NCBI RefSeq assembly: GCF_002906575.1
Contig: NZ_CP026309.1
Location: 3,224,001 to 3,288,000, forward strand
Direction: 5' to 3'
From: Salinigranum rubrum
GTDB taxonomy: Archaea; Halobacteriota; Halobacteria; Halobacteriales; Haloferacaceae
DNA: 64,000 nucleotides
Below, one piece after another: positions 2,374 through 27,773 of the stretch. The position numbers and the translations under genes are program-made. Below the pieces are notes generated by a model that was not told the origin of the DNA, searched no databases, and was given only the letters and a program-made list of their open reading frames with translations. Positions within the stretch are counted from its first letter, which is position 1. Each line of letters starts with the position of its first letter.

Positions 2374-3365
2374 AGGAGCCAGAACCGCTACATGAGGCAG
2401 ACACCCTCTACATCAAACGACAAGGGACGTTGGTCGGCACGACAGACAACCGCATCACTGTCAGAGATGTTGACGGAGAGGATGGGTTACTCGATTCATT
2501 CCCCGTTGAACACGTCAGGACGATCAATGTGTTTGGTGGAGTTGCGTTCACGACGGGATTCACGAGCGTTGCACATGACCACCGAATCACGCTTAATTAC
2601 TTTTCGAAGACAGGTACGTTCCGAGGCCGGTTTCTGCCTCATCGCAACACTGTCGCTGCCGTCCGACGGGCACAGTATGCCTTCGGTGATGATGACGCCC
2701 TCAATTTGGCCTGCGAGCTGATTCAGGCAAAGATAGAGAACGCAATTGGATTTCTCCGCTCGAAATCAGTTGCAGCGCCACAAACGATATACGATGCCCT
2801 CGCGATGACCGAAGGTCCCCAAACACAAGACAGCCTTCGTGGCGCTGAAGGGATGGCTGCAAGAGCATACTTCGATGCACTCTCTGACGTCTTTATTGAT
2901 GGGTGGCAAATGGAGGGGCGGTCGACGAGGCCGCCAGAAGACCATCTCAATTCACTCCTCTCACTCACCTATGTGTTCCTCACGAACGAGGTCGAAGCGG
3001 CGCTTCACACCAGAAATCTCGACCCGCATCTCGGTGTCTTCCACGCCGATCGTCATGGGAGGCCGTCACTTGCTCTTGACCTTATCGAGGAGTTCCGCCA
3101 CCCCTTCGGTGATCGGCTTGTCTCTCGACTGGTAAACCAACGGATACTGACACACGACTCGTTCAATACCAACAATCGCTTATCAGAAGACGGGTTCGAA
3201 AAATTTCTCGAAAAGTATGATCAGTTCATGTCCGAAGCCCAAACCCATCCAGCGTTTGAGTATAGTGTCAGCCGACGGCAAGTGATTCGGCTTCAGGCAA
3301 CGCTCCTCCGAAAGCGACTGGTCGGTGAACTTGACGACTATCACCCATATCTCCCATATAAATGA
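2370..3365 (+). CDS. cas1: CRISPR integrase Cas1
   Basis: Cas1 is the metal-dependent integrase that inserts spacers at the leader end of the array, acting with Cas2. The protein is 331 residues from the ATG at 2370, which overlaps the cas4 TGA. An in-frame GTG at 2361 would add three residues but is less likely. Metal ligands are recognisable: Glu160 in GAEGMAARAYF, His225 in GVFHADRHG and Asp237 in SLALDLIEEFRHP. The N-terminal beta-rich domain (about 1-90) and helical C-terminal domain fit the family. The stop overlaps the cas2 start by four bases. Confidence 0.95.
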   Translation: MKEPEPLHEADTLYIKRQGTLVGTTDNRITVRDVDGEDGLLDSFPVEHVRTINVFGGVAFTTGFTSVAHDHRITLNYFSKTGTFRGRFLPHRNTVAAVRRAQYAFGDDDALNLACELIQAKIENAIGFLRSKSVAAPQTIYDALAMTEGPQTQDSLRGAEGMAARAYFDALSDVFIDGWQMEGRSTRPPEDHLNSLLSLTYVFLTNEVEAALHTRNLDPHLGVFHADRHGRPSLALDLIEEFRHPFGDRLVSRLVNQRILTHDSFNTNNRLSEDGFEKFLEKYDQFMSEAQTHPAFEYSVSRRQVIRLQATLLRKRLVGELDDYHPYLPYK

Positions 3366-25137: not shown

Positions 25138-25257
25138 TGTGTATCTCCGCACGTGTTATCGGTTCGAACTATCATCAACGTTTGGTCCGCGGGCTCGAAC
25201 CCACCCACGGCGCACCAGTGTGCCTGCAGTCGTCTCACACTGACGGTGGGAAAGGAC

Positions 25258-25270
25258 GGATTTTTATACC
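25258..25270 (+). promoter_or_regulatory. TATA box of tRNA-Gly
   Basis: The AT-rich sequence GGATTTTTATACC stands in otherwise GC-rich DNA about 40 bp before the mature tRNA 5' end, the distance expected for an archaeal tRNA promoter. Confidence 0.6.
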
Positions 25271-25306
25271 ACCGTGGCTTTAGCTGAAACTGCGCAGACG
25301 CGTGAT

Positions 25307-25377
25307 GCGCTGGTAGTGTAGTGGTATCACGTGACCTTGCCATGGTCACAACCTGGGTTCAAATCCCAGCCAGCGCA
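25307..25377 (+). tRNA. tRNA-Gly (anticodon GCC)
   Basis: The cloverleaf is complete: acceptor stem GCGCTGG (25307-25313) pairs with CCAGCGC (25370-25376), followed by discriminator A. The anticodon stem TGACC/GGTCA encloses the loop TTGCCAT, giving anticodon GCC. The T-arm contains the invariant GGTTCAAATCC. No intron is seen and CCA is not encoded. The 3' half is repeated several times downstream. Confidence 0.96.
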
Positions 25378-25972
25378 CTTCTCCCGAGCACAAAACGGCG
25401 AGCGGCCGCCGTGCGTGCCGCTCGCCTCCGTGCGAGGGTGTGTGAGCACCTGGATTTGAATCAGAGAGCGAAGCGAACCATGTGAGCGGAGCGACCGTGG
25501 TTCACAATCCCAGCCAGCGCACTTCTACAGAATCCGTCCGCGAGCGACTTCCATGTCGCTCGCACTCTCTGGATTCTGGTGCAGGCGCGACGATGGATTT
25601 GAACCCGGAGAGTCGCAACCGTGAGCGAAGCGAGCGGTCCGTCTCTACTCGGTTCACAATCCCAGCCAGCGCACTTCTCTCGAACTTGACTCCCAAGCGG
25701 CGCGTCTCGTCGCGCCGCGACTCCCGAGTCGAGTGAATGCGAAACGGTGGATTTGAACCCTGCCAGTCGCGCGCAGCGAACGGAGTTCCCGCGAGCGGAG
25801 CGAGTGGGAGCACGGAAGACGAGCAGAGCGAGTCTTCCGGAGTGAGCGAGCACGTCTGGCTTCGGTTCACAATCCCAGCCAGCGCACTTCTCCCGAGCAC
25901 AAAACGGCGAGCGGCCGCTGTGCGTACCACTCGCCTCCGTGCGAGGGTGTGTGAGCACCTGGATTTGAACCC
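25354..25972. repeat. Tandem and inverted copies of the tRNA-Gly 3' end
   Basis: The 3' part of tRNA-Gly (AATCCCAGCCAGCGCACTTC) recurs at about 25506, 25657 and 25871. Between these copies stand reverse-complement T-arm pieces (TGGATTTGAACC type) at about 25451, 25593, 25748 and 25959, so each unit is an imperfect palindrome. A 99-bp block at 25362-25460 returns at 25871-25969 with three mismatches. Linkers contain strong stems such as GCGAGCGAC/GTCGCTCGC (about 25540-25563). Long open frames across the region only translate the repeats. Confidence 0.9.
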
Positions 25973-25993
25973 TATCGGATGGCCTCCACGCTC

Positions 25994-26125
25994 ACGCACG
26001 CGAAGATGATCTGTGACCTCGGGAGCGGTGAGAACCGGAATCTCAGCTTCCTCGAAGACGGCCAGCACGCTGTCGAGCGTCACCTGTTCGGTGTACTTCC
26101 CACTCTCGTCGCGCTCTCGCACCAC
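25994..26125 (-). pseudogene. Truncated 5' fragment of a haloarchaeal HTH protein
   Basis: About 43 codons from a GTG at 26125 (VRERDESGKYTEQVTLDSV, then a PVLTAPEVTDHLR helix) read like the N-terminus of small haloarchaeal winged-helix proteins. The frame then runs into the inverted tRNA T-arm near 25960-25980, and the rest of the domain is missing. The likely cause is recombination at the repeat cluster. The family assignment is from memory. Confidence 0.55.
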
Positions 26126-26207
26126 GAGTGTCCGTCTGTGCGGGCAGACAGATCTGAGTACGTCCCCATCACCGAGGCAGGGTCATGGTACCGCGACACT
26201 CGCAAGT

Positions 26208-26219
26208 CTTATTCATAAA
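26208..26219 (+). promoter_or_regulatory. TATA box of the cold-shock gene
   Basis: TCTTATTCATAA lies 22-33 bp before the ATG at 26241. The spacing implies a leaderless or nearly leaderless transcript, which is common in haloarchaea. Confidence 0.6.
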
Positions 26220-26240
26220 CCCAGTCTACATTTGTCTGTA

Positions 26241-26435
26241 ATGGCAAACGGTAAGGTTGATTTCTTCAACGACACTGGCGGATACGGTTTCATCTCGACG
26301 GACGACGCTGACGACGACGTGTTCTTCCACATGGAGGATGTCGGCGGCGAGGACCTGACGGAAGGTACCGAGGTCGAATTTAGCATCGAACAGGCCCCCA
26401 AAGGCCCCCGCGCGACGAACCTCGTCCGCAACTAA
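26241..26435 (+). CDS. Cold-shock domain protein (CspA family)
   Basis: A 64-residue single OB-fold protein that binds single-stranded RNA or DNA and acts as an RNA chaperone. RNP-like motifs are visible: GKVDFFNDTGGYGFIS (RNP1 region, about 4-19) and DVFFHMED (RNP2, about 26-33). The protein starts MANGKVDFF, the typical haloarchaeal form. An upstream frame remains open but the ATG at 26241 gives the standard N-terminus. It is monocistronic with its own TATA box. Confidence 0.95.
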   Translation: MANGKVDFFNDTGGYGFISTDDADDDVFFHMEDVGGEDLTEGTEVEFSIEQAPKGPRATNLVRN

Positions 26436-26855
26436 GCGTTTCAGCTGTCGCCTCACGGTGACTGTTGACGACTCCGTTCTTTCGCACTGATACGCTCCGT
26501 AGTCGGTGCTCTCTTCAGAGGTACATCTGCGGCGGTAGCCACTCTCTACCGGGACACCGGTGAAGTTCAACAGCTGTTTCGACGCGAAGACGGGGGAATC
26601 CACAGCCATGGACGTGACCGCTGGCGTTTGCGAGAGTCAGAATCCCGACCGTACCGCCGGGTTCCGTTTGGACGAGACGACCCGAGCCAGCGCACTTCTC
26701 CCGAGCGCAAAACGGCGAGTGACCGCTCGGCGCGTCGCGCCGCGACTCCAGAATTCAGTGCGTGATCGCCTCCTGAGACCGACGGTGTCTCCGGCCGTTT
26801 TCGTAACGCAGTTCAATCCTGACGTTCGACAGATAGGTACGGGGCATCACGAGCG
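26436..26855. other. Gene-free stretch with a tRNA-Gly-linked repeat remnant
   Basis: No supported gene is present in these 420 bp. At about 26685-26765 there is another copy of the tRNA 3' end and its linkers (AGCCAGCGCACTTCTCCCG, then a stem of CGGCGCG type), similar to 25372-25410 and 25695-25720. The remainder shows nothing recognisable. Confidence 0.6.
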
Positions 26856-27074
26856 ATGCACAAAACGATCCTGAGAGAGTTCTTCGACGAGTACGAGTGG
26901 ATACACCTGAGTCTGGGTATCGTCGGCAACGTCCTCTTCTTCGTCGGGAGCGTCCTGTTCCTGTACGAGACCATCGAGGTGCTGGATATCTACACGTTCA
27001 TCGTCGGCTCGTTCCTCATGCTCGTCGGCGCGGTCGGGAAGGCGCTGGTCAAGTACGCGAGCGGTGACTCGTAA
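26856..27074 (+). CDS. YrhK-like small membrane protein
   Basis: A 72-residue protein with two predicted membrane segments, about 16-37 (IHLSLGIVGNVLFFVGSVLF) and 46-66 (YTFIVGSFLMLVGAVGKALV). The FFDEYEWIHLSLGIVGN segment resembles YrhK-domain proteins. Function is unknown. A partly deleted copy of this gene lies at 27573-27698. The gene is flanked on both sides by tRNA-Gly-derived repeat remnants. Confidence 0.75.
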   Translation: MHKTILREFFDEYEWIHLSLGIVGNVLFFVGSVLFLYETIEVLDIYTFIVGSFLMLVGAVGKALVKYASGDS

Positions 27075-27103
27075 GCAGCGGTCAGACCGACGGGTCCGGC
27101 GAA

Positions 27104-27224
27104 CGGTCCGTCTCTACTCGGTTCAACATCCCAGCCAGACGGTGGATTCGAACCCTGCCAGTCGCAGCACCCGAGTGAAGCGAGGGCGACCGTCTGGCTC
27201 CGGCTCACAACCCCAGCCAACACA
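27104..27224. repeat. Fused copy of tRNA-Gly-derived repeat units
   Basis: CGGTCCGTCTCTACTCGGTT matches the right side of the unit near 25636, and the following GGTGGATTCGAACCCTGCCA matches the unit starting near 25746. It closes with CTCACAACCCCAGCCA. The linker normally between these parts is missing, so the copy looks like a deletion product. Confidence 0.75.
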
Positions 27225-27272
27225 GTCAACGAGAAACCGAGGACCGAAACCGCACACGCGAACCGGCGAAAT

Positions 27273-27503
27273 CTACTCTCGTTCGAAGTACTGTAAGAGA
27301 AACGGGTAGGTCTCGTTGTAGACAGCCGCGACGGTGAGCAGCACGACGACGAACGCCACGAGACTCTGCAGGGGGATGGAGTAGCCCACCAGCACGTACG
27401 CTGCGGGAAACGGCTCGACCCGTACCACGTAGAACGTCGCTGCCAGCAGAACCATCAGGACGGCCCAACTCGGAATCCGTTGTAATGGCCCGAAGTTCAC
27501 CAT
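27273..27503 (-). CDS. Small two-helix membrane protein, unknown function
   Basis: A 76-residue protein from the ATG at 27503 with two hydrophobic segments, about 13-30 (SWAVLMVLLAATFYVV) and 41-64 (YSIPLQSLVAFVVVLLTVAA). The short C-terminus is charged (YFERE). I do not recognise the family. The start codon choice rests on loss of coding character upstream, where the frame runs antisense through the truncated YrhK copy. Confidence 0.55.
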   Translation of the reverse strand: MVNFGPLQRIPSWAVLMVLLAATFYVVRVEPFPAAYVLVGYSIPLQSLVAFVVVLLTVAAVYNETYPFLLQYFERE

Positions 27504-27572: not shown

Positions 27573-27698
27573 GGAGTTCTTCGACGGTACGAGTGGAGAC
27601 GCCTGAGCCTGGTCTACACGTTCATCGTCGGTTCGTTCCTCATGCTCGTCGGCGCGGTCGGGAAGGTGCTGGTCAAGTACGCGAGCGGCGACTCGTGA
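27573..27698 (+). pseudogene. Partial copy of the YrhK-like gene with internal deletion
   Basis: GAGTTCTTCGAC at the left and TACACGTTCATCGTCGG to the stop at the right match the intact gene at 26856-27074 almost base for base. About 80 bp in the middle, encoding the first membrane helix, are missing. The left part also has an indel in the GACGAGTACGAG stretch that shifts the frame. The 3' part reads YTFIVGSFLMLVGAVGKVLV and ends with the same KYASGDS. Confidence 0.85.
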
Positions 27699-27773
27699 GG
27701 ACGGACGCCGACCGGCGAGTGTGGCAATCGGTGCGCCTCCACCCGACACGCCCAGTCAGCTACCGCTCCCGAG

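Follow-up and report, generated by a model that had tools for sequence, protein, structure and literature searches.

The tRNA-Gly(GCC) gene of Salinigranum rubrum is followed by a tandem array of short hairpin units, in which the last part of every complete unit repeats the 3' end of that tRNA in direct orientation, and units of the same build stand behind many other tRNA genes of this genome and of other haloarchaea. In our judgement they are probably, though far from certainly, a family of non-autonomous, tRNA-anchored palindromic insertion elements which duplicate the tRNA 3' end on insertion. The array was analysed in a window of 64,000 nucleotides (G000:C1:3224001-3288000) of the 4.97-Mb S. 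rubrum genome (G000), and the coordinates given below are positions in this window. The parts of a unit are, in order, a stem-loop spacer (S), the inverted T-arm (L), a core that is conserved (C) and, as right arm, the directly copied tRNA 3' end (R). The units are specific to tRNA genes, R and the T-loop and T-stem part of L are local to the tRNA concerned, the boundaries are exact, whole units are present or absent, tandem arrays are formed and the spread is haloarchaea-wide. Mobility by a dedicated enzyme is what we infer in addition.

Behind tRNA-Gly(GCC) the order S L C R occurs three times and is followed by S L, the fourth unit being truncated; with two older remnants the total is three complete units, one truncated unit and two remnants, all on the forward strand. 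The host gene, source of the arms, lies at 25307-25377 (ARAGORN; Rfam RF00005, 66.7 bits). As the initial annotation of this sequence had claimed, the tRNA-Gly 3' end is repeated downstream: the 21-mer AATCCCAGCCAGCGCACTTCT has four exact copies (25362, 25506, 25658 and 25871) and one with three mismatches (26679), the expectation from shuffles being 0.00. The R copies, at 25499-25521, 25651-25673 and 25864-25886, read GGTTCACAATCCCAGCCAGCGCA, which is the tRNA-Gly 3' end carrying one additional C in the T-loop. The inverted T-arm GGATTTGAACCC occurs at 25595, 25749 and 25961 and its variant GGATTTGAATCA at 25452, the general form in the array being GGATTTGAA(CCC/TCA). The reverse-complement arm that had been reported to accompany each repeat is thus present four times, but the fourth unit ends after it.

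Unit 1 begins one base past N73 with a spacer at 25378-25451 (-39.3 kcal/mol, z -2.8), a near-duplicate of that at 25887-25960; L follows at 25452-25463 and pairs with R in the fold, and the class A core GAGAGCGAAGCGAACCATGTGAGCGGAGCGACCGTG (25464-25498) has one mismatch to the order-wide class A core. Unit 2 has a two-part spacer at 25522-25594 (9-bp outer and 9-bp inner stems, z -3.7), L at 25595-25606 and a class B-prime core, GGAGAGTCGC...GTCTCTACTC, at 25607-25650, which folds as a hairpin and is of a type also found behind Haloarcula tRNA-Arg. Unit 3 comprises a stem-loop spacer at 25674-25748, L at 25749-25760 and a class B core, TGCCAGTCGC...CACGTCTGGCTTC, at 25761-25863, which matches the class B pattern and is enlarged by two extra apical hairpins (-67.3 kcal/mol, z -3.6). 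The truncated fourth unit (25887-25972) has a spacer and left arm without core or right arm and is 97% identical to S and L of unit 1; the 99-bp near-duplication noticed initially was confirmed, blocks 25362-25460 and 25871-25969 sharing 97% identity. Every L-C-R segment folds as a hairpin with the core as its apical part. No shuffle folded as well as those of units 2 and 3 (z -2.9 and -3.6), whereas the excess in unit 1 is weak (z -1.3). The strong stems that had been described in the linkers were recovered on folding the spacers, those of units 2 and 3 consisting of an outer and an inner stem.

The arms are tailored to the tRNA they follow. Over the terminal 14 bases, R agrees with its own tRNA at a mean of 13.1 positions and with other isotypes at 7.2, and no foreign tail reached 13. 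A position profile of 68 R copies places the copied stretch at tRNA positions 57 to 73; in this profile positions 54-56 are universal and uninformative, and positions 62-73 had served for selection while the edges had not. The match falls to background one base past N73, and the 5' strand of the T-stem (49-51) is also at background. A start of R only after GGTTCA was considered and dropped, since position 57 is local too. In 38 of the 74 Salinigranum units R is identical to the tRNA over 16 bases. The T-loop and T-stem part of L likewise follows the local tRNA (4.59 for its own, 2.90 for other isotypes) in an anchored test, which was used in place of a cruder first test that showed little; AATTGAA, for example, stands behind tRNAs that have TTCAATT. 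The acceptor part of L follows the local tRNA weakly and its acceptor pairing is often poor.

Whole units can be seen to be present in one genome and absent from another. Behind tRNA-Arg(CCG) of Haloarcula, genome G160 has an empty site in which the tRNA is followed by CTTTCTGCGACCC, and in G023, identical to G160 over the 176-bp upstream query, two S L C R units stand between the tRNA and CTTTCTGCGACCC. Other Haloarcula genomes carry zero to four units, of differing core classes, behind this tRNA. Similarly, the site behind Salinigranum tRNA-Glu(CTC) is empty in G000 and G002 (tRNA followed by TCCCTTCCTGCCGCC), and in G003 it holds a single unit with an exact R, after which comes TCCTTTCCTGCCGCC. 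As the native flank resumes right after R, whole units come and go exactly between N73 and the native flank. Units may also nest: in Halarchaeum acidiphilum (L162, 4480-4600) a 44-bp core is doubled in tandem inside one unit with a TTCAAA/TTTGAA junction, followed by AAATCCCAAATCCC, a duplicated AAATCCC, which looks like insertion of one core into the T-loop copy belonging to another unit. At the tRNA-Gly of G003 (L062) a PIN-domain toxin-like gene and a small partner, identified by eye, separate the proximal units from an older remnant, and by this example cargo genes can probably become trapped in arrays.

The search for the unit downstream of other tRNA genes was successful both in the same genome and across haloarchaea. 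A fuzzy copy of the gene's own 3' end was found downstream of at least 19 of the 46 tRNA genes of S. rubrum (0.65 expected from shuffles), a count that missed some carriers such as tRNA-Leu(TAA) and the intron-containing tRNA-Trp. Among four Salinigranum species 56 of 152 tRNA genes have at least one copy within 560 bp, against none of 760 shuffled controls. Units measure about 70-230 bp (median 128 in the genus). The class A core 19-mer GCGGAACGACCGTGGTTCA, at a tolerance of at most one mismatch, is present in 113 of the 293 genomes of the order and in 46 of its 88 genera, with no match for the reversed control. The class B core CACGTCTGGCTYCGGTTC is present in 114 of the 293, where the control gave a handful of matches. 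When 84,980 bacterial and archaeal genomes were scanned for the exact class A core, it was found on 78 contigs, every one of them haloarchaeal by its title. A tRNA gene on the same strand lies 59-290 bp upstream of 71 of 84 class A copies (17 isoacceptors), and at least seven of the remaining 13 are preceded by a copy of the same tRNA tail; these lie in tandem arrays, on truncated contigs or behind probably intron-containing tRNAs that the finder missed. For class B a tRNA is upstream at 27 of 30 loci. With a unit behind over a third of this genome's tRNA genes and at hundreds of haloarchaeal loci, the early suggestion of a palindromic element targeting or derived from tRNA genes is supported, and the opposite prospect, plain degenerate copies of a single integration event with no inverted arms elsewhere, is contradicted.

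Two further observations concern this distribution. No unit was seen behind the tRNA-Ala(TGC) inside rRNA operons, following the 16S rRNA 3' end (L005, L019), in the Salinigranum genomes examined, as would be expected if insertion behind a tRNA that requires read-through is selected against. Moreover, the pattern NNNNN-GA-ACG-nnn-CGT-GA-NNNNN is common to spacers, and GCGAAGC or GCGAACGAAGTGAGC to cores (e.g. L089, L111, L193); these we take to be mini-hairpins with tandem G-A mismatches, like the extra-stable d(GCGAAGC) hairpin.

The array itself lies within the 25354-25972 interval first assigned to it, but the remnants run on to 26679-26740 and 27097-27219, with a cold-shock gene (cspA) and a small open reading frame (ORF) intervening. 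The nearer remnant, found by the 21-mer match 3' of cspA, holds a tRNA-Gly acceptor copy and an S-like stem; the farther one holds the end of a C2-like core, a degenerate R, L as GGATTCGAACCC (27144-27155), a class B core and another degenerate R (27202-27219). A small two-helix membrane ORF in the distal array (26856-27074) has a partial second copy at about 27610-27700, 0.6 kb downstream, which suggests duplication of the region. An Rfam 15 scan of 25200-27300 gave the tRNA alone at gathering score, with cspA and mascRNA-menRNA matches below it.

How such insertion might proceed can be outlined. A recombinase or transposase would recognise TTCRANTCC, the universal motif of the T-loop, found in every tRNA at 17-20 bp upstream of N73; a staggered cut over that interval would open the gene, and gap repair would duplicate the tRNA end as R and leave the tRNA gene intact. 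Because this distance is constant, a T-loop reader with fixed stagger would duplicate the observed stretch in any isotype. Recognition of a T-loop motif in DNA has a precedent in the casposase of Aciduliprofundum boonei, which reads TCAAATC (PMC6614799). The form recognised may be the hairpin, as single-stranded DNA or RNA. L would be the element's own copy of the T-loop motif, its complementarity to R being kept by hairpin-templated correction or by selection, and arrays would be built and eroded by repeated insertion behind one tRNA and by unequal recombination between R copies. More tentatively, a unit may re-derive both arms from each new target, so that one machinery could recognise the T-loop of any tRNA gene, place a hairpin core behind the gene and leave both direct and inverted copies of its 3' end. 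If true, the units would represent a 'universal adapter' mode of insertion valid for all tRNAs, for which we know of no counterpart.

Several points weigh against an insertion element. Empty sites of the same kind as with insertion result when a unit is deleted through recombination of the tRNA end with R, and simple target-site duplication explains R and not why L is partly local. Among the 74 Salinigranum units the nearest relative stands behind a different tRNA in 41 cases and behind the same tRNA of another species in 30; the latter, presumably inheritance, imply that movement is infrequent. The units encode no protein, and none of the candidate enzymes considered (Cas1 and adjacent integrases) could be identified as theirs. 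Nor was an autonomous relative found in phages, plasmids or IMG/VR, chromosomal transposons lying outside that survey.

The fold of the units also bears on what they are. L pairs with R, and in some units the acceptor part pairs as well, giving a near-complete acceptor-T minihelix with the core as loop. Among 27 class B units compared after trimming of the variable apex, compensatory changes occur in four of the seven pairs of the internal stem, which is not tRNA-derived, and covariation over the whole structure is 0.157 against 0.078 when shuffled; none of 500 shuffles reached it and slid controls were all lower. Hairpin symmetry is thus maintained, which fits both selection on a folded strand and quasi-palindrome correction. 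A different explanation is that the units work as RNA: read-through from the tRNA promoter would yield an L-C-R minihelix ending at N73 that is cleaved by tRNase Z, perhaps receives CCA, and serves as processing decoy, trailer stabiliser or small RNA. The minihelix and the compensatory changes agree with it, as do the exact end of R at the mature tRNA end and the wobble pairs, which lean slightly to the sense strand in class B (nine GT-type against three AC-type) and include a conserved U-G in class A. However, sister species differ in which tRNAs carry units, many tRNAs have none, L often pairs poorly in its acceptor part, and zero to four copies of unrelated core classes at one tRNA suggest dispensability; we regard an RNA cassette as a possibility of fairly low probability.

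The clearest case of close relatives behind different tRNAs, which counts in favour of an insertion element, concerns two other tRNAs. The core behind Val(TAC) in G000 is nearly identical to that behind Pro(TGG) in G003 from the left arm through the right T-stem; past the T-stem each continues into the acceptor end of its local tRNA, and the spacers are different. Cores exchangeable while arms stay local would also arise without a dedicated enzyme, if local template switching had triplicated the tRNA end with the middle copy inverted (A, inverted A, A), gene conversion among tRNA, R and L had homogenised it and cores had been exchanged ectopically. The direct-inverted-direct order is the classical product of template switching, and the near-identity of R to the tRNA agrees with it too. 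Nevertheless core and spacer sequences are conserved order-wide, so an origin from local sequence is not possible, and spread to tRNAs with clean empty sites in sister species needs transfer. This course of events seems to us distinctly unlikely.

It might further be supposed that the units are scars of tRNA-targeting tyrosine-integrase elements, attL/attR remnants left after loss of the element. Such elements also have the 3' part of the tRNA directly repeated at their distal end, they are known for the partial tRNA copies that mark them (PMC3119063, PMC9897764), and they occupy the same tRNA genes. In G000 about 2 kb with a tyrosine-integrase-like gene part the intron-containing tRNA-Trp from a unit array which carries tRNA-Trp ends beyond that gene (L015, 1300-3012; L016, 1-1425); apparently the array was displaced downstream when the element inserted at the tRNA. 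In the congener G001 the repeat of an integrase element at tRNA-Gly measures 49 bp and extends into the anticodon arm, unlike the 17-20 bp of units. Both elements look independent of the units, and integrase genes are not systematically adjacent to units: the two seen belong to separate, ordinary elements at the same tRNA. Tyrosine-integrase elements are kb-sized, integrase-coding, one family per tRNA and without an inverted arm (PMC8371274), whereas here one core serves all isotypes with locally matched arms and a single integrase's attP matches one tRNA; the inverted left arm and the spacer stems are foreign to attachment sites. None of the phage, plasmid and viral records carries a unit: BLAST of the array against plasmids gave, among the matches listed, cspA genes only, and against phages nothing; the core alone likewise gave nothing. 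Five IMG/VR contigs matching the core patterns were rejected as chance, being without arms or tRNA. More than a single integrase scar was suspected from the beginning, and we consider this origin very unlikely.

Insertion by a casposase or other Cas1-type enzyme is hardly credible. The family 2 casposon of A. boonei does insert at a tRNA-Pro 3' end next to the T-loop motif TCAAATC with a short target duplication of 14-15 bp (PMC6614799), and a duplication at the tRNA 3' end, seen in the copy of positions 57-73 and in the empty sites, is likewise found for the units. A Cas1 integrase is not encoded by the units, and the Cas1-family gene is absent from 17 of 23 unit-carrying genomes, which largely refutes the idea, and the duplication here includes the T-loop while that of the casposon lies downstream of it. 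Casposons are moreover larger and encode Cas1, and units stand behind all isotypes, duplicate from T-loop to N73, have a locally matched inverted arm and reside mostly in Cas1-free genomes. A Cas1 gene does lie in the same window, at 2406-3221 (G000:C1:3226406-3227221; PF01867, E 6.8e-72). Copying of mature tRNA by a reverse transcriptase is disfavoured because R is without CCA.

The 3' ends of tRNA genes are classical landing sites of mobile DNA, and to our knowledge each tRNA-targeting element described so far is tied to one or few tRNAs. Integron attC sites, like the units, are tandem imperfect palindromes with bulged bases, and are recombined as folded single strands; the units, however, have no integron-integrase shown and no obligatory gene cassettes, and their arms are copied from tRNA. 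Repetitive extragenic palindromes (REPs) differ from the units in their constant sequence and in lacking tRNA specificity and target copying. The RAYT-mobilised REPs and REPINs (family reference PMC3733652) resemble them as tandem, imperfect hairpin pairs with conserved stems, extragenic and non-autonomous. In the short, non-coding build with terminal inverted repeats (L pairing with R, about 70-230 bp) the units agree with miniature inverted-repeat transposable elements (MITEs). In the relevant sections of the Haloquadratum walsbyi survey, SMR-A, MITEs and palindrome-associated transposable elements (PATEs) are likewise short, non-coding, inverted-repeat or palindromic and too short for a transposase, but their termini are fixed and no occurrence behind tRNA genes is described, whereas the termini of units are copied from the host tRNA; partial tRNA copies are mentioned there only as prophage scars (PMC3119063). 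The high copy identity and absence of target duplication that mark SMR-A and SMR-B are not seen here, as the arms vary by tRNA and a tRNA copy is present. A search of the open-access full-text literature, to which subscription papers did not belong, found no description of the units; hairpin inserts behind haloarchaeal tRNA genes are thus apparently undescribed, and there is a fair chance that the acquisition of target-matched arms is new in kind.

Units behind most isotypes throughout an archaeal order, with arms matched locally, would point either to a new target-copying insertion mechanism or to an unrecognised RNA module on tRNA precursors. They explain many of the supposed ORFs and of the tRNA fragments that haloarchaeal genomes contain. 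In addition, through their gain, loss and order in arrays, they provide a natural countable system for hairpin-driven genome change in archaea.
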